This document shows, in pieces, positions 213 through 63,416 of a stretch of DNA of 64,000 bases (positions are counted from its first letter, which is position 1; every line of letters begins with the position of its first letter). The translations under genes were made by a program, and so were the position numbers. The notes below the pieces were generated by a model. It ran no database searches. It was not told the DNA's origin and worked only from the letters and a program-made list of their open reading frames with translations. This DNA is from Candidatus Brevefilum sp. (lineage in GTDB: Bacteria > Chloroflexota > Anaerolineae > Anaerolineales > Anaerolineaceae), in NCBI GenBank assembly GCA_029210815.1, contig JARGGB010000004.1, positions 1 through 64,000 on the forward strand. Reading direction: 5' to 3'.

Positions 213-247
213 AAAAAACCCTTCCCAATACAGCGGGAAGGGTTTTT
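213..247. terminator. Bidirectional intrinsic terminator downstream of the copper/rhodanese operon
   Basis: AAAAAACCCTTCCC-AATACAGC-GGGAAGGGTTTTTT perfect hairpin with A and T tracts. Confidence 0.85.
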
Positions 248-263
248 TAATCTCTATTCAGGT

Positions 264-722
264 TTACGGTTCGATGGGGTAGCCTGCTGCAATCCAGGCT
301 TCAAAACCACCGACAATTGGGTTTGCCCTGCTGATACCATTTTGCAGCATGATCAGCGCCGCACGGGCGCTTGTGTTTTCAGCTGGTCAGGTGCAGTAGG
401 TAATGTACCAGGTGTCTGGGTCTAACTCACCTACGCGGTCTTCAACCTGGTCGATGGGTAGGCTGATCGAGCCTGCGACACGCTGTGCTTGATAGTTTGC
501 TTCGCTGCGCGCATCTACAATAACGGCTTCGCCTGCCAGCATCGCTTCGTAAGCTTCTTCAGCAGTGACCCTGGGAATATCATCCTGGTTGGTAATTTCG
601 CCAGGATTTTCGATCCGTGATTGCCTGATATTATCCGCAAGGATCAAACCGACAATGCTTACCAGGATGACGCCTGCTAACAGGATGATGGGCATTAAAG
701 CCTGGTTCTTTTTTCTTTTCAT
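264..722 (-). CDS. Membrane-anchored rhodanese-domain protein; candidate selenoprotein read through in-frame TGA at 387-389
   Basis: ORF track gives 387..722 (111 aa). In-frame translation past TGA gives PAENTSARAALIMLQNGISRANPIVGGFEAWIAAGYPIEP* ending at TAA 264-266. This is a normal rhodanese C-terminus (GGFEAWIAAGYPIE). N-terminal TM anchor LMPIILLAGVILVSIVGLILA. Confidence 0.75.
355..371 (-). promoter_or_regulatory. SECIS-like hairpin downstream of the in-frame TGA
   Basis: Minus-strand RNA AGCGCC-CGUGC-GGCGCU: 6-bp stem, 5-nt loop with G in the second loop position. The loop begins 21 nt after UGA. Possible lower stem CAGC/GCUG. Confidence 0.5.
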
Positions 723-754
723 AAAATTCCCTTTCTATATGTTCTAGTGATAAA

Positions 755-3175
755 TCATTTGAATCGACGCAGCCGCAGGCTGTTGGTCACCACAAAAATA
801 CTGCTAAAGGACATCGCGCCTGCAGCCAGCATGGGGTTTAACAAGCCCAGGGCTGCCGCTGGTATCAGGATGGTGTTGTAAAAGAATGCCCAGAAGAGAT
901 TTTGTTTGATGGTCCGCAGTGTACGGCGAGATAGGGCAATCGCTTTTGGTACGCCGCGCAAATCACCGCTGATTAACACCACCGGGGCTGATGCCATTGC
1001 CACATCTGTACCGGTGCCAATGGCGATACCGATATCCGCCTGTGCCAGGGCAGGGGCGTCGTTGATCCCATCGCCAACCATTGCAACCACATGCCCTTCT
1101 GATTGAAGCGCTTTGACACGGACAGCTTTATCCCCGGGCAGGACCTCTGCTAAAACGGCATCAACACCTACCTGCTTTCCGATGGCATTTGCTGTGCGCT
1201 GATTGTCGCCGGTGACCATCACAACTTCCAATCCCATGTCACGCAAAGACTGGATGGCTTCTTGCGAACCGTCTTTAATGGTATCTGCGACACCGATTAC
1301 ACCGGCTAATCGTTTGTTAACTGCAATCAGCAGCGCCGTATTTCCGCTTTCCTCGAGTCCGTCCAGGTCCGCCTGTGCTGTCTTGATATCAATGTTGTTA
1401 TTTTCCAATAGGCGTCGGTTGCCGACAAGGATTTGTTGGTTTTCAACCTCAGCTTTTACACCGTGCCCGGCGATTGCAGAGAACCCAAGGGGGTCACTGA
1501 GAGATAAGCTGCGCGCAATGGCTTCAGCTGTGATGGCTTCACCCAATGGGTGCTCGCTGCCTTTTTCTACGGAAGCTGCCAGGCGTATCAGGTCATCTTC
1601 ATTTCCAGTAAATTCATAACGATAGACCTTTGTCACTGCTGGTTGACCGCGTGTGATCGTCCCTGTTTTGTCAAGGACAACCGTCGTGATATCGCCGGCG
1701 CGTTCGAGGCTTTCGCTCTTCTTAATTAAAATGCCCAGCTCCGCACCTTTTCCCGTACCGACCATAACGGCGGTGGGGGTAGCAAGCCCCATTGCACATG
1801 GGCATGCAATCACCAGGACGGCGACAGTGTTGATCAGTGCCCTGGTGAACAGGCTCACTTCTGAGGTAGGACTCAGTGGAACGAAGTAATACCAAACAAT
1901 GAAGGTGAGGATGGCAATGCCGATCACAACAGGCACAAAAATAGCAGAGATTTTATCCGCCAGGTTTTGGATGGGGGCTTTACTGGCTTGAGCTTCTTCG
2001 ACAAGTTTAATGATTTGCGCCAAAGCTGTTTCTTTACCGATTTTTGTCGCTTCAAACTTTAATAATCCCAGCTTGTTGATTGTTCCCCCAATGACGCTCT
2101 CCCCGGGCACTTTCTCAACAGGCAGGCTTTCGCCGGTCAGCATCGATTCGTCGACACTGGAACGACCGTCTACGACCACGCCGTCAACGGGGATCTTTTC
2201 GCCGGGATGCACCAGAACAATATCACCCACTTCAACCTGGTCAACCGGGACTTCAATCTCAATGCCGTCACGCACGATGTACGCTTTTTTAGGACGCAGG
2301 TCCATCAAGCGTCTGATGGCATCACTCGCGCCGCCTTTAGCTTTAGCCTCGAAATATTTTCCCAATTTAACCAGGGTGATGATCACTGCGGAGGTCTCGA
2401 AGTACGCATGCCCGGGGATGAGACCAAAGACAATTGGGATGGAATAGAAATAGGCTGCGGAGGACCCCAGGGCAACCAGCACATCCATGTTGGCGGAACC
2501 ATTTCGTATGGATTTATAGCCATTGACATAATACTGCCAACCTACATAAAACTGGACGGGCGTCGCTAAAGCCAGGAAAAGATAGTTGATCCAGGGTGCA
2601 TGCGCCAGGGCAGATGGAAGCAAGCCCAAATCCCTGCCCATTGATAGGATGAATAAGGGGATCGTAAAAATTAGCCCGATGATCAGCAAGCGCCGTTGTT
2701 CCGCGATTTCCTTTTGGCGTGCTTTCGCCTCAGCATCTTCCAGGGGGATGTCTGTTTCAAGGGGCTCAAAGCCGGCGGACCGAATCAATCTGCGCAGTTC
2801 GTTTTGGCTTACAACTGTTGGCACATATTTGATCAGGGCTTTTTCACTCGCAAGGTTGACATTTGCTTCAATAACTCCTTCTTCCGCCAGTAAAACCTTT
2901 TCGAGTCGGCGCACATCAGATGCGTCGGACAGGTTTTTAATGCCCAAGGATGCTTCACCCATGGCAATTTCATAGCCGGCGCGCTGCACCTGGTCAATAA
3001 AATCGCCTAGATTTGCTTTTTGCGGATCATAACTAACGGCAGCGCGCTCTGAGGAAAGGTTGACATTTGCTGAATCAACTCCGTCAACCTTTTTCAGGTT
3101 ACGTTCAACGGTTGCGACACAATTTGCGCAGGTCATCCCCAGGATGGGAAGGGATAGATGTTTTTGTTCTGTCAT
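755..3175 (-). CDS. copA: Cu(I)-translocating P1B-type ATPase
   Basis: HMA domain GMTCANC, CPC ([15 protein letters not shown]), DKTGTIT, HP (SEHPLG), [10 protein letters not shown] motifs. Confidence 0.97.
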
Positions 3176-3184
3176 GGGTAAGCT

Positions 3185-3391
3185 TTAATTCGCTACAGGA
3201 TAGTTTATTTCTGCAAGGGTGTCTTTGATGATTTGTTCAGACGCCGGTGCATCAAAAGTGACCTTTACAAGCTGGGTTTGTACATCGGCTTCGACGTTTG
3301 AGACACCTTCAATCTCCGAAAGTTCCATGGTGATGGTGTGTGTGCAGTGTTTGCAGGAAATATTAGGGACAGTATAGGTTACGGTATTCAT
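3185..3391 (-). CDS. copZ: Copper chaperone, heavy-metal-associated domain protein
   Basis: 68 aa starting MNTVTYTVPNISCKHCTHTI; CxxC HMA motif; AAGGAG Shine-Dalgarno before ATG at 3391. Confidence 0.93.
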   Translation of the reverse strand: MNTVTYTVPNISCKHCTHTITMELSEIEGVSNVEADVQTQLVKVTFDAPASEQIIKDTLAEINYPVAN

Positions 3392-3410
3392 GGGTAACTC
3401 CTTATTTTTA

Positions 3411-3686
3411 TTAAACTCTATTGGCGGTTTCAAATACTTCAGTGATCTCGTTCAGTACACGCTGCCTTTCAGCAGGGTCATCCCCCTGGGCAACGGTCAA
3501 AAGGCATGTGTTCAGGTGCCCATCCAGGATTTGTGTGCTGATTTTATTCAAGGCTGATTGAACAGCCTGGATTTGGCGAATGACATCAATGCAATATTGG
3601 TCTTCGTCAAGCATGCGCTGGATGCCCCTGATATGACCTTCCACGGTTTTTAATCGCTGGATGCTGTCTTTGTGATCGTGTACCAT
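3411..3686 (-). CDS. csoR: CsoR/RcnR-family (DUF156) copper-sensing repressor
   Basis: 91 aa four-helix family: KTVEGHIRGIQRMLDEDQYCIDVIRQIQAVQSAL...DGHLNTC; Cys-His-Cys ligand pattern of the Cu(I) branch. Confidence 0.93.
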   Translation of the reverse strand: MVHDHKDSIQRLKTVEGHIRGIQRMLDEDQYCIDVIRQIQAVQSALNKISTQILDGHLNTCLLTVAQGDDPAERQRVLNEITEVFETANRV

Positions 3687-3858: not shown

Positions 3859-4776
3859 ATGAATAAACAAAAAATTGGGCTATTGTTGATGATCCTGGCT
3901 GCGTTTGGCCTGGGTATTTCAGTTATCTTGATGCGAATCATGACCCAATCGATGGCGATGCCGCCTTATCAAATTGGAATTTGGCGATTTGTGATATCCG
4001 GATCATTAATCTGGGTGATTTTTGGTTTGCGAAAAGGTAAACAGAAATTTACAAACAAGCATCATTTGTGGTTAATTGGGCTGGGAGCGATTTTTTCAAT
4101 TTCCGGGTACACAGCTTTGTTCGCATTGAACAGGATGCCTTCCTCACTTTACATTATCATCCTTTATATTTACCCTTCGCTGGTCGTCTTGTATGCGATG
4201 GCAAGAAAGCATCCGATACCCTCTTTGTTTTGGCTTGCGCTGCCAATGTCCTTTATCGGGCTGGTTTTAACAGCCTATCATCCGGGTGAAGCATTGGTGA
4301 TCGACTTGACTGGCTTGTTATTTACACTCATCAACGCCGCTGCCATGGCACTTTACCTGATATTGAGTGAAAAAGGGTTCCGTGGTGTTAATGACCGCCT
4401 ATCAGGGACAAGCTGGGTGATCACCGGGGCGATGCTGGTCAGCCTGGTGTTGATACCTATTTTTGGTCTATCGCTTCCAAATTCAGGTCGAGAGTGGGGA
4501 ATCCTGTTGATTTACAGCATCTTTGGAACTTTAATGCCGGTTCTATCCATGAATATTGGACTGCAGCTTTTGGGTGCAGCACGGGGTTCGGTGATTATTA
4601 CGGTTCAGCCGGTGATAACGGTGCTGATGTCTGTCATCTTCCTTGATGAAGTGCTCACCGGTCAACAATGGATTGGTGGTTTATTGGTGGTGATTGCGGT
4701 TGTTGTGCTTCAGTTCAGTCCGGACCGTAAAAGTCTGGGTATTCAGGTCAATCGTTCAATCCCAGATCTTGAATAA
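3859..4776 (+). CDS. EamA/DMT-superfamily transporter
   Basis: About 10 TM helices with two EamA-type repeats; terminal VIFLDEVLTGQQWIGGLLVVIAVVVLQ. Confidence 0.88.
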   Translation: MNKQKIGLLLMILAAFGLGISVILMRIMTQSMAMPPYQIGIWRFVISGSLIWVIFGLRKGKQKFTNKHHLWLIGLGAIFSISGYTALFALNRMPSSLYIIILYIYPSLVVLYAMARKHPIPSLFWLALPMSFIGLVLTAYHPGEALVIDLTGLLFTLINAAAMALYLILSEKGFRGVNDRLSGTSWVITGAMLVSLVLIPIFGLSLPNSGREWGILLIYSIFGTLMPVLSMNIGLQLLGAARGSVIITVQPVITVLMSVIFLDEVLTGQQWIGGLLVVIAVVVLQFSPDRKSLGIQVNRSIPDLE

Positions 4777-4952: not shown

Positions 4953-6338
4953 TTAATTCCCGCGATAAGCTGGTACCGGGATGACAATATTGGTACATAT
5001 TCGCTGATCCTGCATGCGGCTGTAAAGGCGGGGATCCAGTTCTTCAGGTGTGCTGGATGTGGTGATGACTGTCGGCAATTCTGCATTATATCGATAATTA
5101 AATAATTGATAAAGCTTTTCTCTTGCCCATGGGGTGGCGGACTGGGTTCCCAGGTCATCAAGAATCAGGATGTGAGATTTTTTTACCTCTTCAAAACGGC
5201 GATCCAGAGAGACGTTGCTGTTTGGGCTGAAGGTTGCACGAAGGTGATCGAGCAAATCCGGGACGCTTACCATCAGCGGCGGGAAACCAAGACTTGCCTG
5301 GTAATTGCCAATTGCAGCCGCAAGATGGGTTTTACCGCACCCATAGGGTCCGGTTAGCAGCAACCACCCTTTTGGATGTTCTGCGAAATCACGCGCTGCC
5401 TCAAAAGCTTTTTTAAGATCCCGCAAATCCTCTTTGGGGAGCTTTTCATGCTGGCGCATGCTGAAATTGCCGAAGGTCTGCCGGGAGTGCATTGCCAAAG
5501 TTGAAAGCTCTGGATGGCCGGTATCGTCGGTTGGATTACGGTAATCCGGTGCGAGAATTTTCACCACCGTAACCAGGTTGGGGTCCTGCAGCCGGGACCG
5601 TATACGCCCATCGAAGTCATTGATCAGCATGTTGCTGGTTACCACGGTGGGAAGTTTGTTAATATAGCGGTGATTCATGATCTGAAAGATTTTTTCCTGT
5701 GCCCAGGCAGTTGCGTTTTGGGTGCCAAAGTCATCTAATATTAGTAATGGGCTTTCCCGTATTTCTTCAAAGCGCTCTTCAAAACTCAAGGCTGCCCCTG
5801 AATAGGCATAGCGCAGCCAATCCAGCAAGTCTGGCACGGTTAGAAAAAGGGTTGTAATACCCTCTTCAATGGCTTCGTTTGCGATGGCAGCTGCCAGGTG
5901 TGTTTTTCCGCTGCCATACGGTCCCATCAATAATAACCATCCTTCAAGGTTTTTGGCGAAATTACGCGCCTGGTTGTAGGCATTTTCCAGGGAATCCGAT
6001 TGATGTTTTCCAAGACCGACTCTGCCTCGTTTTTCAAAATTATCAAATCGTAAATCCTTAAGGGCATCCAGGCTGCTCATTTTGAATAATCGGGTTCTTG
6101 CAGATTGTGTGATGGCTTCTGCGCGGCATGAGCAGGGATAAATTTTCCCGAAATCGGGATGATTGATGGGAACATCGCGGCGGAGATAGCCAATACCGCC
6201 GCAAATCGGGCAATTCGGATCACCAGGCATCTTCACCTGGCGGATGGGCTCGCTATTCTCTTCTTGATTATTTTTTGCCAAGCCAGCTTCTTCTATATCT
6301 GCTCGGATCTTGCGAATCGTTTCGTCGATTTTGCTCAT
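4953..6338 (-). CDS. DnaI/DnaC/IstB-like ATPase with two tandem AAA+ domains and an N-terminal zinc finger; putative helicase loader
   Basis: Two Walker A (GPYGSGKTHLAAAIANEA, GPYGCGKTHLAAAIGNYQ) and two Walker B (LLILDDFGTQ, ILILDDLGTQ); CPICGG...CSCR finger. Start set to MSKIDETIRK (RBS AAGGACGTGGAAATG). Confidence 0.85.
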   Translation of the reverse strand: MSKIDETIRKIRADIEEAGLAKNNQEENSEPIRQVKMPGDPNCPICGGIGYLRRDVPINHPDFGKIYPCSCRAEAITQSARTRLFKMSSLDALKDLRFDNFEKRGRVGLGKHQSDSLENAYNQARNFAKNLEGWLLLMGPYGSGKTHLAAAIANEAIEEGITTLFLTVPDLLDWLRYAYSGAALSFEERFEEIRESPLLILDDFGTQNATAWAQEKIFQIMNHRYINKLPTVVTSNMLINDFDGRIRSRLQDPNLVTVVKILAPDYRNPTDDTGHPELSTLAMHSRQTFGNFSMRQHEKLPKEDLRDLKKAFEAARDFAEHPKGWLLLTGPYGCGKTHLAAAIGNYQASLGFPPLMVSVPDLLDHLRATFSPNSNVSLDRRFEEVKKSHILILDDLGTQSATPWAREKLYQLFNYRYNAELPTVITTSSTPEELDPRLYSRMQDQRICTNIVIPVPAYRGN

Positions 6339-7005
6339 TTCCACGTCCTTCATTTTGCCAGCGGTCCAGAATCGCCTGAACGTATTTCCAATTGCGTACA
6401 TTACGCTTCACGGCAATTTCAATAGCTTCTTTGATCCAGGCTTCAGGGTATGTTTTTTCGTCTTCTTTCAGGATTTCTGCGATCAAGGGTGTGATCGGGC
6501 CTATATTTTCCTCGTAGAGTCCATATATATTGGGCTGCTGATCCGTTAATTGAATCGGTTTCCTTTCAACATCTGTGTTTTTCCACTGCCCGTCCTCAAT
6601 GGTTTTTACAGCTGCACGTCCCTGGGGTCCGTTGACAAAGTAAATAAGTTCTTTCTTTCCGGACAATTGGGCTTCTAAAAGGATATCCATACTCACGAGG
6701 GTCTCCAGGTCTTCTCGGAGTGTCGTTTCATTACCGATCATCGCCATCAGGGTAGGGTCAGAAGAAAGGTCAGAATACTCCAGAAAGCGGATATTGTTTT
6801 CCTGCTGTTCAATATGCCAGAAGAAGTATAACAACAGCCGAACCTGTGTTATGGAATTGATCAAGGGCAAAATCTGAGAGAAGAAGGGTTCTGGTAAACG
6901 TACCAAATCCAGGTTATCTTCTTTAAAGCCTTTAAAAAGTTTTGTGCTTTGGGGAGTCACGGTTTTGATTCCTTTAACCTTCCGGATATTGTCCCCTGGC
7001 AGCAT
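6268..7005 (-). CDS. DnaD-like replication protein
   Basis: C-terminal EIGP-like YEENIGPITPLIAEILKEDEKTYPEAWIKEAIEIAVKRNVRNWKYVQAILDRW typical of DnaD/DnaB_2 domains; located between dnaB and the loader. Confidence 0.85.
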   Translation of the reverse strand: MLPGDNIRKVKGIKTVTPQSTKLFKGFKEDNLDLVRLPEPFFSQILPLINSITQVRLLLYFFWHIEQQENNIRFLEYSDLSSDPTLMAMIGNETTLREDLETLVSMDILLEAQLSGKKELIYFVNGPQGRAAVKTIEDGQWKNTDVERKPIQLTDQQPNIYGLYEENIGPITPLIAEILKEDEKTYPEAWIKEAIEIAVKRNVRNWKYVQAILDRWQNEGRGNEQNRRNDSQDPSRYRRSWLGKK

Positions 7006-53354: not shown

Positions 53355-55778
53355 ATGATCATTTCTATCTTGTCCTGGATCATACTCAGCCTTATTTTGG
53401 GTTGGCTCACATTTCCACTGGCATTTCGCCTGTTTTCCAAACTTTCTGATCGGGGGTACACCTTCAGTCGTATCCTTGGTTTGCTGTTGTGGGGTTTTGG
53501 CTTTTGGATTTTAACGTCGCTTAATTTATTGCAAAACCAACCGGGCGGCATTGTGTTTTCACTGGTCATTCTGCTTGTGATCAGCATTTGGTCAGGTTGG
53601 AAAAAACGTCGTGAAATTTGGGATTGGATCAAGTCCCATTGGCGATTAATCCTTGTTACCGAAATTGTTTTTATAACGGCTTTTCTATTTATGATCCTGG
53701 TGCGAGCTTCGAACCCTGAAGCAACCGGCACAGAAAAACCAATGGAGCTGGCATTTATCAATGCCATCCTCAACTCGAAATCATTCCCACCAAAGGATCC
53801 CTGGTTATCTGGCTATTCGATTTCCTATTACCATTTTGGGTATATCCTGGCTGGGATGATCGCGAAGTTGACCGCCACCAGCGGTGGTGCAGCTTTTAAT
53901 TTAATGCTGGCGCTGGTCTTTGGCTTGAGTGCTGTGGGTGCTTATGGTGTCCTCTACAACCTGCTTGTTTTGTTAGGTTATAAAATTAAGAAAGCAATGG
54001 AGGCTATATCCTGGGCTTTATTGGGTCCTGTATTTTTATTGTTTGTCAGCAACCTGGAAGTAGTCCTCGAAATGCTCCATCAGCGCGGCATTGGCTGGGA
54101 TCTGAGCACAGGGACATCCCAATTTTGGCGATGGATCAATATTGAGAGCCTTAACCAGCCGCCGAGCCCACCGCTGACCCTGATACCACAGCGGTTTTGG
54201 TGGTGGTGGCAAGCTTCCCGTGTGATCCAGGATATTGATCTGCTTGGCAATGTCAGCAGCCTTTCGCCTATTGATGAATTCCCGGCTTTTTCCTTCGTTT
54301 TGGGCGATTTACACCCCCACGTGCTGGTGATGCCCTTTGTAATGCTGGTGATTGGGCTGGCTTTAAATGTTTTCCTTGGCGGGATGAGCGGCAGAACAAA
54401 AATTTTAGGCTTTGCTTTTCCTTACCGCCTGGATCAATTTTTTCTCAGTGCCTTAATATTGGGCGGGATTGCTTTTTTGAATACATGGGACCTGCCCGTC
54501 TATTTCACCTTATTGACCGGGGCTTTTGTTTTGAACCGAGTCTTTGAGAAGGGTTGGTCGTGGCAGCGGTTTGGTGAATTCTTGCTGCTGGCATTTCCAC
54601 TGGGGATATTCTCATTAGCCCTTTATGCGCCATTTTTGATAAGTTTCCAGTCGCAGGCAGGCGGGATTTTACCGAACATTTATTATCCAACCCGAGGGCT
54701 GTATCTATGGTTGATGTTTGGGTCGCTTTTTATCCCCTTGTTTTTGTTTTTTGGCTATTTGTTGCGAAAAAGAGAAAAGGCAGATTGGCGGTGGGGGGCT
54801 TTAATTGCGCTGATCTTGATCGTGGTTCTTTACCTGGTTTCAATACTTTTGGGGATTGTGATCGCGAATATGGATATCGGTCAGCAAATGATCGCTGCCC
54901 AGGGGCAGACGAGCCTGGGCGGCATTCTTCTGGCAGCCCTCAAACATCGGCTGAGCTATGGCTTTGGAGTGCTGACATTAGCACTTTTGTTAGGTCTTGG
55001 ACTTGCGTACCTCCTGGGTGCATCTGTGAAGCAGGATTCGGATGATGATAAGCCATCTCCTTTCCCCTTCGTTTTATTGATGATCGTTTTGGGGGCAGTC
55101 ATGGTGATTGCGCCGGAATTTGTTTACCTGCGGGACAGCTTTGGTGCCCGGATGAACACAATTTTTAAGTTCTACTACCAGGCATGGATGCTGTGGTCCC
55201 TGGCTGCGGCATTTGGTGCAGTGTTGATCCTCAAAGAGGGCAAGCTTGTCTCAAAAATTTTGATTGTCATTTTCCTTCTACTGGGTCTGATTTACCCGGC
55301 ACTGGCTTATGATGAAAAAACCAATGGTTTTCAGGCTTCACAAGGATTTACCCTGGATGCAGGCGCTTATTATGCGCAGTATCAACCAGATGAGGCAGCT
55401 GCGATTGACTGGTTGTCACAAGCGCCGGATGGCGTTGTCGCAGAGGCGGTCGGCGGTCAATACTCGGGTTATGCACGGGTTTCCACCTTAAGCGGTCAGC
55501 CCGCTGTCCTGGGTTGGCCCGGGCACGAAGGACAGTGGCGGGGTGGGTATGAAGAAGTTGGCAGCCGGGAATCGGATATTCGAACTTTATATAAAACGCC
55601 AGATTGGTCAGCAGCACTGGAAATTATCCAGCGCTATCAAATCAATTATATTTTTGTGGGCAGCCTTGAAATGAGCACATACGCCCTCAATTTGGATAAA
55701 TTTGAGCAGAACTTATCCCCGGGTTTCCAGCAAGGCTTTGCGACGGTTTTTGTCGTCCCTGAAACTTTGTCGGATTGA
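53355..55778 (+). CDS. DUF2298 (Chlor_Arch_YYY-type) multi-TM protein
   Basis: About 800 aa polytopic; DPWLSGYSISYYHFGYILAGMIAKLT; FSFVLGDLHPHVLVMPFVMLVI. Confidence 0.85.
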   Translation: MIISILSWIILSLILGWLTFPLAFRLFSKLSDRGYTFSRILGLLLWGFGFWILTSLNLLQNQPGGIVFSLVILLVISIWSGWKKRREIWDWIKSHWRLILVTEIVFITAFLFMILVRASNPEATGTEKPMELAFINAILNSKSFPPKDPWLSGYSISYYHFGYILAGMIAKLTATSGGAAFNLMLALVFGLSAVGAYGVLYNLLVLLGYKIKKAMEAISWALLGPVFLLFVSNLEVVLEMLHQRGIGWDLSTGTSQFWRWINIESLNQPPSPPLTLIPQRFWWWWQASRVIQDIDLLGNVSSLSPIDEFPAFSFVLGDLHPHVLVMPFVMLVIGLALNVFLGGMSGRTKILGFAFPYRLDQFFLSALILGGIAFLNTWDLPVYFTLLTGAFVLNRVFEKGWSWQRFGEFLLLAFPLGIFSLALYAPFLISFQSQAGGILPNIYYPTRGLYLWLMFGSLFIPLFLFFGYLLRKREKADWRWGALIALILIVVLYLVSILLGIVIANMDIGQQMIAAQGQTSLGGILLAALKHRLSYGFGVLTLALLLGLGLAYLLGASVKQDSDDDKPSPFPFVLLMIVLGAVMVIAPEFVYLRDSFGARMNTIFKFYYQAWMLWSLAAAFGAVLILKEGKLVSKILIVIFLLLGLIYPALAYDEKTNGFQASQGFTLDAGAYYAQYQPDEAAAIDWLSQAPDGVVAEAVGGQYSGYARVSTLSGQPAVLGWPGHEGQWRGGYEEVGSRESDIRTLYKTPDWSAALEIIQRYQINYIFVGSLEMSTYALNLDKFEQNLSPGFQQGFATVFVVPETLSD

Positions 55779-59882: not shown

Positions 59883-62800
59883 ATGACACACCTCCACATT
59901 CACCTTCTGGGACCATTTGAAGCATCTCTTAATAGTGAACCGGTTACCGGATTTCATTCTGACAAAGTGCGGGCTCTGCTTGCCTATTTATGTGTTGAGA
60001 CAGAAGGTGCGCACCGCAGGGAGAAACTGGCTGGTTTTTTATGGCCGGATTTTCCTGAAAGCGTTGCTCGGACAAACCTTCGTTCGGCGCTGTGTAATCT
60101 CCGCAAGGTGATAGGCGATCGTCCGCAATCAGGAAATGCCCAATCATTAGCAAATTTCCTGTGTATAACTCGTCAGACGATCCAATTCAACCTGGACAGC
60201 GAAGCCTGGGTGGATGCCCACACATTTGTAAAAAACCTGGAAGCAGTACATCCCACGATTGCGGAACTTGAAGCAGGAGTGGCATGCTATCGAGGTGAGT
60301 TCATGGCGGGGTTTTCGGTACCTGATACTACTATCTTTGAGGAATGGCTGCTGTTTCAACGGGAGCTTTTTGAACGGCTTATTCTGAAAGCCCTGCACAC
60401 GCTGGCTGATATATACACCACTCAGGGTGAGTATGCGCGAGCTTTATCCCACGCCTGGCGGCAGGTTGAGCTGGATCCGATGCGCGAAAAAGCACAACGG
60501 CAGTTAATACGTCTCCTGGCTTACAATGGGCAGGGTGGTAAAGCATTGATCCAATATGAGATCCTCCGTCGTTTACTGGAGGATGAAATTGGTGTTGAAC
60601 CCTCGCTGGAGACGACAAAGTTGTATGAGCAAATAAAGGATGGCACATTAATTATCCCTGCATCAACTTCCACAAGTCTGCCGGCTTTCCTTTTCGAAGA
60701 GGAGCTGGAAAGGGCTGCTCAGCCAGTTTTCGTCGCTCGCGAGGGTGAAATGGCTCGATTGGAACAACTGTTTAATCGAGCACTTGCTGGCAAGGGGCAA
60801 GTGGTATTTATCATCGGCGAGCCAGGCAGCGGAAAGAGCGTCCTGGCGAGTGAATTCATCCGACGAGCGATGACGGCACACCCGAAATTATTGGCTTTAA
60901 AAGGGCGATGCAATGCTTATACGGGCATTGGGGACCCCTATTTACCCTTCCGAGAGATGATTGGGATGCTCACCGGTGACATCGAGACAAGATGGGCGGG
61001 TGGTGAAATCAGTGGTCAACATGCCCGGCGCTTGTGGAGTGGACTGCCTGTCGTTTTACAAGCCCTCCTGGAGAATGGGATCGATTTGATTGACCGTCTT
61101 ATCCCAGGTGCTTCATTACTGGCGCGTGCTCAAGTTGGCACGCCTTCACAAGCAGCGCGATTAAAGGAGATACTTGATGGAAGGAAGTTCTACAGGTCTG
61201 AAAAAGACTACATGGATCAAGCAGATTTGTTCGAGCAATACACCAAAGTTTTACAGGTGCTTTCTCATAAATTCCCTTTGGTACTGATGGTGGACGACCT
61301 TCAATGGGCAGATCCCGGTTCGATCGGCTTGCTCTTTCAACTTGGGCGCCGATTGAGGGGCAGCCAAATTCTGCTTATTGGCGCTTACCGCCCGGAGGAG
61401 GTTGCAATGGGACGCCCTTCGGCTGATTCCGGCTTGGAACGGCATCCACTGGAAACCGTCATTCATGAATTCCAACGTGATTTTGGGGATATCATTATTG
61501 ATCTTGATGATACGGAAGGTCGTACATTTGTAGAAGCCTTCCTTGATTCAGAGCCAAATTGTTTGGACATTAACTTTAGACAGGTGTTTTATCAGCATAC
61601 CGGCGGGCATCCACTGTTCGCCGTTGAATTATTGCGTGGTCTGCAGTCATGCGGTGATTTGATCAAAGATGGGTCTGGACGCTGGATTGCGAGACCTGAT
61701 TTGAACTGGAATACTCTTCCGCCGCGTGTGGAGGCGGTGATTGATGAACGGATCAAACAGTTACCGGAGGTTTGGAGGTCTATCCTTGCTGCTGCCAGCG
61801 TCGAAGGTGAAGTATTTACAGCTGAAGCAGTTGCTCGGGTTATGGAAATAGATGAAGATCAAGTCCTGGGATGTTTAAGTGGTCCTTTGACTCACAAGCA
61901 CCACCTGGTCCAGGCGCAAGATCTTGAGTGGGTGGGTGACCAGCGTCTGTCGCATTACCGCTTTCGTCACTTCCTCTTTCAAAGATACCTTTTTGATCAA
62001 TTTGACCCGGTGCAGCAGGCGCATTACCATCAAAGTTTGGGAAGTGTGCTTGAGAATCTTTATGGGGATCAGAGAGGAGAAAAGGTTGCATCCTTAGCAT
62101 GGCACTTTGAGGCGGCTGGGATGAAATTGAAGGCAGCAGAATACTTGCTCAAGGCAGGAAACCGGGCCGTTCAATTGTTTGCTTATGAGGAAGCTATCGC
62201 ACACCTCAGACATGGCCTTGAGCTAATTGAGAAACTACCCGAAACACAACAGCGTGACCAGATGGAAATGTCCTTACAACTTTCCCTGGCCATTCCCCTG
62301 GGAAGAATCCGGGCAGTCTCAGATGCCGAACTTGGACAAATCTATGCCCGGGTGAGACAACTGACGCAAAACGTTGAACCTTCATTGGAATTGTTCCAGG
62401 CTTTAGCAGGATTAAAGTGGTATTTCGATCTCCATCTTGAGCTTCAGAAGGCACTAAAGCTGGGTCAGGAGATGATCAACCTTGCTGGATATCTTAAGAT
62501 GCCAGAGTTATCAATGGTAGCTCATACAGCTACTGGAGTCACACTTCTGTATTTAGGTCGAGCTGATGAATTTCTAAAGGAGCAGCAGCGGATGTTAGCC
62601 CTCTACAATGCTGAATGTGACCGTGTTCTGGTTCAGAAGTTGGGATGGGACCCTTTAACAGAAGCACTTATCAAAGCTGGGTGGGCTTTATGGTTCCTGG
62701 GTTACTATGATCAATCCGAGGAGAGTTACAAAAAGGCTTTAAACCTGGTCAGAGAAGCGGGACATCCTTATTTACAAGTCAATGTTTTTATGTCTGCCGC

Positions 62801-63416
62801 ATATCGTTACATTGGCATGTGTGAAGTAGCGAGTGCCCGTGAAATGGCTGCTAAAGCAATCGCTATATCCAGCGAGTATGGATACTCGTTTTGTTTGGGG
62901 GGCAGTTTGGGCACAATGGGTTGGGTGTTGGGAGAGGAGGGTCAATTGGAGGAAGGGATTAACATGATCCATCACGGGCTGGCGATTGTAAAAGAAATCG
63001 GGTCATGGATTCTTTATCAAGAAGAGCTCTCTCTACTCGCCGATACCTATCGTAAAGCAAAAAAAATCTCAGAAGGATTGGCTACCGTCGAAGAGGCTCT
63101 GGCGATGGTTCACGAGAAGGGATTTCGGCTCGAAGAACCCGGATTATACAGACTGAAAGGCGTGCTGCTGCTTTTGGGAGGGGAAGCAAATAGTGAGGCA
63201 GAGGTTTGCTTCCAGCGTGCGATTGATGTCGCTCGTCAGCTCAAGGCTAAGACCTGGGAATTACGTGCTACTATGAGCCTGTGTCGCTTGTGGCAAAAAC
63301 AGGGTCAGCGGGAAAGGGCACGAAAGATGCTAGAAGAGATTTATGCCTGGTTCACAGAGGGATTCGAGACCCGCGATTTGAAAGAGGCGAAAGCTTTGTT
63401 AGAAGCGTTATCATAA
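59883..63416 (+). CDS. BTAD (SARP-like) transcriptional regulator with AAA ATPase and TPR domains
   Basis: LHIHLLGPFEASLNSEPVTGFHSDKVRALLAYLCVE, BTAD segment, Walker A IIGEPGSGKSVLASEF, Walker B LVLMVDDLQWADPGS, C-terminal TPRs. Confidence 0.93.
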   Translation: MTHLHIHLLGPFEASLNSEPVTGFHSDKVRALLAYLCVETEGAHRREKLAGFLWPDFPESVARTNLRSALCNLRKVIGDRPQSGNAQSLANFLCITRQTIQFNLDSEAWVDAHTFVKNLEAVHPTIAELEAGVACYRGEFMAGFSVPDTTIFEEWLLFQRELFERLILKALHTLADIYTTQGEYARALSHAWRQVELDPMREKAQRQLIRLLAYNGQGGKALIQYEILRRLLEDEIGVEPSLETTKLYEQIKDGTLIIPASTSTSLPAFLFEEELERAAQPVFVAREGEMARLEQLFNRALAGKGQVVFIIGEPGSGKSVLASEFIRRAMTAHPKLLALKGRCNAYTGIGDPYLPFREMIGMLTGDIETRWAGGEISGQHARRLWSGLPVVLQALLENGIDLIDRLIPGASLLARAQVGTPSQAARLKEILDGRKFYRSEKDYMDQADLFEQYTKVLQVLSHKFPLVLMVDDLQWADPGSIGLLFQLGRRLRGSQILLIGAYRPEEVAMGRPSADSGLERHPLETVIHEFQRDFGDIIIDLDDTEGRTFVEAFLDSEPNCLDINFRQVFYQHTGGHPLFAVELLRGLQSCGDLIKDGSGRWIARPDLNWNTLPPRVEAVIDERIKQLPEVWRSILAAASVEGEVFTAEAVARVMEIDEDQVLGCLSGPLTHKHHLVQAQDLEWVGDQRLSHYRFRHFLFQRYLFDQFDPVQQAHYHQSLGSVLENLYGDQRGEKVASLAWHFEAAGMKLKAAEYLLKAGNRAVQLFAYEEAIAHLRHGLELIEKLPETQQRDQMEMSLQLSLAIPLGRIRAVSDAELGQIYARVRQLTQNVEPSLELFQALAGLKWYFDLHLELQKALKLGQEMINLAGYLKMPELSMVAHTATGVTLLYLGRADEFLKEQQRMLALYNAECDRVLVQKLGWDPLTEALIKAGWALWFLGYYDQSEESYKKALNLVREAGHPYLQVNVFMSAAYRYIGMCEVASAREMAAKAIAISSEYGYSFCLGGSLGTMGWVLGEEGQLEEGINMIHHGLAIVKEIGSWILYQEELSLLADTYRKAKKISEGLATVEEALAMVHEKGFRLEEPGLYRLKGVLLLLGGEANSEAEVCFQRAIDVARQLKAKTWELRATMSLCRLWQKQGQRERARKMLEEIYAWFTEGFETRDLKEAKALLEALS

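Follow-up and report, generated by a model that had tools for sequence, protein, structure and literature searches.

Rhodaneses that contain selenocysteine (Sec) are known, a CxU form among them (PMC13188914, PMC9312934). The CxU form corresponds to NF041203 (rhodanese_LYCAU, 'rhodanese-related (seleno)protein'), which equals the 'rhodanese-like domain-containing protein form 3' (PMC13188914). The other Sec-rhodaneses are forms 1, 2 and 4 (UxxS, UxxG) and form 5, TsoB (UxxxxU, NF045694) (PMC13188914). Related rhodaneses without Sec include GlpE and PspE, single-domain thiosulfate sulfurtransferases (PF00581; PDB 1gmx), and the BH2092-type proteins (PDB 3nhv), which have a longer YC-W-GPxC loop.

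We analyzed a 64,000-nt stretch of a Candidatus Brevefilum sp. contig (the window), in which a rhodanese gene with an in-frame TGA follows three copper genes (Table 1). NF041203 is the best NCBIfam match over the rhodanese domain of the encoded protein (5.2e-19), and the two share a C-x-U motif (Cys110-Thr-Sec112 here) and the status of predicted selenoprotein. The window protein differs from NF041203 in its N-terminal transmembrane anchor, its YCTUP loop and its copper operon, and because its score of 68.2 bits falls short of the family cut-off (115) we file it as a variant and not as a member. A deltaproteobacterial CTU relative (L128) passes the NF041203 cut-off at 118.2 bits. Forms 1, 2, 4 and 5 have in common with the window protein a rhodanese domain with Sec, but place their Sec in other motifs. 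Identity with TsoB, which is DsbD-fusion-like, was rejected (17.5 bits, cut-off 805), the window protein having a single Sec and no UxxxxU.

GlpE and PspE have the same fold and the same first-Cys position in the catalytic loop, but differ in having one loop Cys, a loop shorter by two residues, no Sec and a soluble form. The BH2092-type loop aligns gap-free with the YCTxPAE..SA loop of the window protein, from which it differs in the position of its second Cys, elsewhere in the loop, and in the lack of Sec. The three genes of Cu(I) CsoR-CopZ-CopA efflux operons stand side by side here as well, with the predicted Sec-rhodanese added at the 3' end.

Table 1. Positions of the features of the rhodanese locus in the window.
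Feature	Position	Strand	Evidence or remark
Terminator-like palindrome behind rhodanese gene	213-248		14-pair stem and T run
Predicted rhodanese selenoprotein gene	264-722	-	Frame of 152 codons, open except for one internal TGA, then TAA (264-266); PF00581 E 6.9e-11; AlphaFold2 mean pLDDT 92.5
bSECIS-like hairpin AGCGCC-CGUGC-GGCGCU	355-371	-	Stem 371-366/360-355, loop 365-361 (CGUGC); MFE -9.5 kcal/mol
In-frame TGA, codon 112, predicted Sec112	387-389	-	Present in all 14 genus copies that span it and in about 160 homologs
Cys110 codon, C of C-T-U	393-395	-	Canonical rhodanese catalytic position directly after strand; TGA in U-x-U relatives
N-terminal transmembrane helix, residues 9-38, after MKRKK	609-698	-	AlphaFold2 helix 9-38; C-terminal domain probably outside (positive-inside reading)
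RBS-like AAAGGGA	728-734	-	Sequence; most relatives have an AAAGG/AAGG-like motif ahead of the start
copA, Cu(I) P-type ATPase, CPC motif, two HMA domains, stop TGA	755-3175	-	TIGR01511 611.6 bits (cut-off 397); Pfam; about 32 nt upstream of rhodanese gene
copZ-like HMA copper chaperone	3185-3433	-	PF00403 48.5 bits; weak TIGR00003 and CopP matches below cut-off
csoR-family repressor	3411-3686	-	PF02583 93.9 bits; C-x24-H-x3-C ligand pattern in sequence

A rhodanese frame with a single internal TGA

The original prediction described a frame interrupted solely by the TGA and open onward to the TAA, and the minus-strand translation (722-264) agrees, with YITYCT-U-PAENTSARAAL around the TGA. The rhodanese-like continuation that it described past the TGA is borne out by the PF00581 match, which spans the codon (residues 53-145, 42.9 bits against a gathering score of 22.2). 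With the single sequence, Pfam and PDB searches return ordinary rhodaneses only. An annotation ending at the TGA would list the predicted Sec-rhodanese as a 111-residue fragment.

The AlphaFold2 model, built from 56 sequences, consists of a rhodanese domain and a helix at residues 9-38 that fits the membrane anchor proposed earlier. Its best PDB matches are rhodaneses (Foldseek, VIA-align; Z up to 18.6, GlpE 16.5). A predicted strand occupies residues 105-109 and a helix begins at 113, so that Sec112, two residues past Cys110, falls at the start of that helix. Profile alignment brings the YC of the loop onto GlpE and BH2092. The 56 sequences do not vary at D70, R72, Y109, C110, residue 112, P113, E115, S118, A119 or GG138-139, with Sec modelled as Cys.

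Conservation of the TGA and selection beyond it

A match reaching the site is present in 14 of the 16 genomes of the genus, all 14 with TGA; the two genomes lacking one are 66% and 75% complete. The TGA is also kept in homologs from other families and orders. A search of GTDB species genomes for the pattern Y-x-x-U-P yielded at least 118 stretches; they come from Chloroflexota, Acidobacteriota, Rokubacteria, deltaproteobacteria and some other groups. Among the 80 stretches listed (81 matches), YCTU occurs 77 times and YUTU four times, and one listed stretch (L120) looks like a chance match. From these sequences, the predicted selenium-dependent rhodanese group is widespread.

Within the genus, dN/dS (pN/pS) is 0.29 after the TGA and 0.30 before it. 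Disruptive changes downstream of the TGA, which the original prediction named as the mark of a pseudogene, were seen in none of the relatives. The gene thus combines a conserved TGA with continued downstream selection, the pairing expected of a bacterial selenoprotein.

A SECIS-like hairpin downstream of the TGA

The bSECIS model sets a loop of 3-9 nt, a stem of 4-16 bp, a G in the first two loop bases, a distance of 16-37 nt from the UGA and an MFE of at most -7.5 (PMC13188914). The window hairpin lies within every one of these limits, with a 5-nt loop, a 6-bp stem, G at loop position 2 and a loop that starts 21 nt past the UGA; the SECIS-type spacing and early loop G of the original prediction therefore stand. 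The longer 63-nt single-sequence fold is not unusual relative to shuffles (z = -0.81), and as such a fold is weak alone, comparative evidence is needed.

Across 22 homologs, 95.5% of stem cells are paired and three of the six pairs show changes on both sides, a result reached by 0 of 500 shuffles. In one homolog (L039), the lower stem has been rewritten to UCAGCC/GGCUGA. Synonymous divergence within the genus is reduced over codons +1 to +12 (pS 0.37, compared with 0.68-0.75 elsewhere). Relative to synonymous-codon shuffles of 160 homologs, the hairpin window is more stable, with a mean z of -1.63, and a control window has -0.07; as these homologs are related by descent, the Wilcoxon p is only descriptive and not an independent-sample probability. 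In 151 of the 160, the apical loop has a G at its first or second base.

Sec machinery and TGA usage

Neither a tRNA nor an Rfam element was detected within the window (Rfam scan, ARAGORN). The whole genome, a 2.66-Mb draft that is about 96% complete, contains all four of the genes that the original prediction proposed to look for: selC (tRNA-Sec, 69.3 bits, above cut-off; ARAGORN anticodon TCA), selB (354 bits, above cut-off), selA (520 bits) and selD (334 bits). The selD gene (L017:1468-2667, G000 contig C75) has its own in-frame TGA near the N-terminus, reading SSCAGUASK, and is thus of the Sec type; its product is a second predicted selenoprotein and gives a positive control for the decoding of Sec by this organism.

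TGA is also an ordinary stop here. It ends 16 of the 45 long non-overlapping ORFs of the window, copA included, which rules out global TGA reassignment. A strong tRNA-Sec match is present in about 45 of the 50 genomes with a TGA rhodanese among the 400 Chloroflexota genomes scanned; the rest are incomplete drafts. TGA-rhodanese genomes with a weak tRNA-Sec match have SelB above cut-off in all cases except G186, an 82%-complete draft with partial SelB-like pieces only.

Loop variants and U-x-U relatives

A pattern with TGN at both loop positions occurs at 50 places in 45 of the 400 Chloroflexota genomes; two of the places look like chance matches. The second position is TGA at all 50 places and the first is TGA as well at six. 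No Cys form (TGC/TGT at the second position) was found in these 400 Chloroflexota genomes, so the YC(S/T)CP loop that the original prediction called typical of related rhodaneses, and the Cys/Sec homolog pairs that it proposed to look for, do not appear there. Cys homologs at the Sec site are usual for a selenoprotein and not required. The 20 TGA-less homologs are ordinary rhodaneses with other loops, for example CRSGNRS and YCRGPYC.

Further loops with TGA read YCTUQ, YCAUM, FCTUP and YCxGxTUGES. Three rhodanese-like sequences (L078, L090, L089) carry TGA elsewhere in the loop (YC-x4-U-GES; YCNDFQUDMS), where the shared fold would hold its Sec at other sites. In ten loci (L115, L125, L141, L154, L160, L161, L169, L173, L180, L181), a C-T-U rhodanese domain lies C-terminal to a multi-helix membrane region that is DedA/SNARE-associated-like by eye; the hosts are Acidobacteriota, Rokubacteria and others. 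An Acidobacteria contig (L192) has tandem C-T-U rhodanese genes (3316-3347 and 3971-4002), and one genome (G047) has three copies.

Relatives whose two loop positions are both TGA (U-x-U) account for 13 distinct sequences in our tree, including one from the window's genus (G002), and L075 is another. The U-x-U loci are L029:1501-1956 (G002), L067, L071, L073, L074, L075 and L076, and further L124, L145, L162, L177, L193, L216 and L217. On the tree of 151 sequences, which is weakly resolved, the U-x-U label needs nine changes, of which at least two are forced by strongly supported branches. These relatives are apparently double selenoproteins. With a spacing of 6 nt between the two UGAs, the apical loop starts at 21 and 27 nt, both within the 16-37 nt range, and a single SECIS-like hairpin may serve both. 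The G002 case is treated with more caution because it has lost the preceding Tyr as well (YLTI-U-T-U). A literature search found no published record of a UxU rhodanese or of a UxU or diselenide double selenoprotein, and a 2026 review does not contain 'UxU', although coverage was incomplete and such absence is not proof.

The copper operon and its conservation

The four genes csoR, copZ, copA and rhodanese lie in this order on the same strand, the rhodanese being last and 32 nt past the copA stop. The C-x24-H-x3-C pattern of the window CsoR has the ligand spacing of Cu(I) CsoR. A P-type ATPase stands directly upstream of the rhodanese at every genus locus examined, with similar short gaps and in the same order, and CsoR is present at 12 of 15 genus loci, several of these loci being truncated at a contig end or duplicate views of one genome. 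The rhodanese gene thus shares the strand, the short gap and the conserved Cu(I) ATPase adjacency of a copper-efflux operon. Elsewhere in the window lie genes for a 482-aa protein with a tandem pair of IstB/DnaC-like ATPase domains (4953-6401, minus strand), an 807-aa DUF2298 membrane protein (53355-55778, plus strand) and a 1177-aa BTAD-AAA-TPR regulator (59883-63416, plus strand).

Outside the genus, an ATPase is just upstream at three loci (L119, L153, L191), of SPC and not CPC type, and an SCO1-like gene is just upstream at two (L129, L163). In G047, genes for PCu(A)C and DUF305 proteins and one SCO1-motif gene are found in the vicinity of the rhodanese copy. Motif searches and some Pfam scans, partial in coverage, found no copper gene nearby at most other loci outside the genus. 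The copper link therefore belongs to the genus, and support for it elsewhere is scattered.

Discussion

As a whole, the locus is best explained, and in our judgement probably so, by a membrane-anchored Sec-rhodanese that acts as a C-x-U redox or persulfide enzyme and is linked to copper efflux. Its parts carry different weight. SelB and tRNA-Sec would decode UGA codon 112 as Sec under the direction of the hairpin that lies 21 nt past it, and the sequence evidence makes Sec insertion at this codon almost certain. The single-pass anchor would present the Cys110-Thr-Sec112 loop of the predicted fold outside the cytoplasmic membrane; from the positive-inside reading, this orientation of the C-terminal domain is very likely. 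As Cys110 occupies the rhodanese persulfide position and Sec112 follows two residues on, redox cycling is the most likely behavior of the pair, and fold and context together lean modestly toward redox or persulfide chemistry. The pair may pass through thiol/selenol, Cys-persulfide and Cys-Sec selenenylsulfide states, as in a sulfur/persulfide transferase or reductase. Being the last gene of the csoR-copZ-copA operon in the genus, the rhodanese is probably induced with copper efflux, and its product could protect or repair extracytoplasmic thiols, or buffer Cu(I), where CopA delivers copper. We advance a copper-linked role in the genus only tentatively.

Other readings of the UGA fare poorly. 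Were it a true stop, the product would be a 111-residue protein ending in ...YCT and the remainder would be decayed or untranslated, as in a pseudogene. TGA is indeed a normal stop in the genome, and the shorter ORF still encodes the transmembrane helix along with half the domain, but the 40 downstream codons are open and constrained (dN/dS 0.29) in all genus copies and open in many phyla, and the rhodanese fold as modelled needs them, making termination highly improbable. It is just as improbable that a near-cognate tRNA or a lineage-wide reassignment inserts some residue other than Sec. An in-frame TGA alone names no residue; tRNA-Sec, selA, selB and a Sec-type selD, together with a selected SECIS-like hairpin at the right distance, the abundance of TGA-ending genes and the presence of tRNA-Sec or selB in nearly all gene-bearing genomes, all argue for Sec. 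The chance that TGC or TGT was turned into TGA by a sequencing or assembly error is negligible: well over 100 homologs, independently assembled and from several phyla, share the TGA at this codon, which excludes a base-call error even without reads, and the 400 Chloroflexota genomes hold no TGC/TGT form.

A more serious competitor accepts the selenoprotein and gives it another main job, extracytoplasmic Cu(I) binding or delivery by a co-opted rhodanese fold, in place of sulfur or persulfide chemistry. The operon in the genus, the copper genes near the G047 copy and the SCO1 genes upstream in L129 and L163 speak for it, and soft metals could plausibly be bound by a vicinal thiol/selenol pair. 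Against it, the key rhodanese residues D70, R72, Y109, C110 and GG138-139 are invariant and no neighboring copper gene was found for most relatives beyond the genus, and we regard Cu(I) delivery as unlikely, though far less so than the alternatives to Sec. For the preferred Sec-rhodanese with redox or persulfide chemistry, the operon context offers a concrete hypothesis that ties selenium to copper handling outside the membrane.

A possible wider picture, for which we would not claim even odds, is a Sec-obligate rhodanese branch in which the loop Cys has repeatedly become Sec, giving U-x-U sites under one SECIS, and of which the genus branch is a copper-efflux-linked, extracytoplasmic, selenium-dependent sulfur or redox enzyme. 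If true, a diselenide-capable rhodanese and the decoding of two Sec codons by one SECIS would be new. The U-x-U relatives would provide a direct test system for one SECIS serving two nearby UGAs and for the redox partnership within the loop. With the window protein, a class of predicted selenoproteins that has received little study gains a membrane-anchored form, one that is common in uncultured Chloroflexota.
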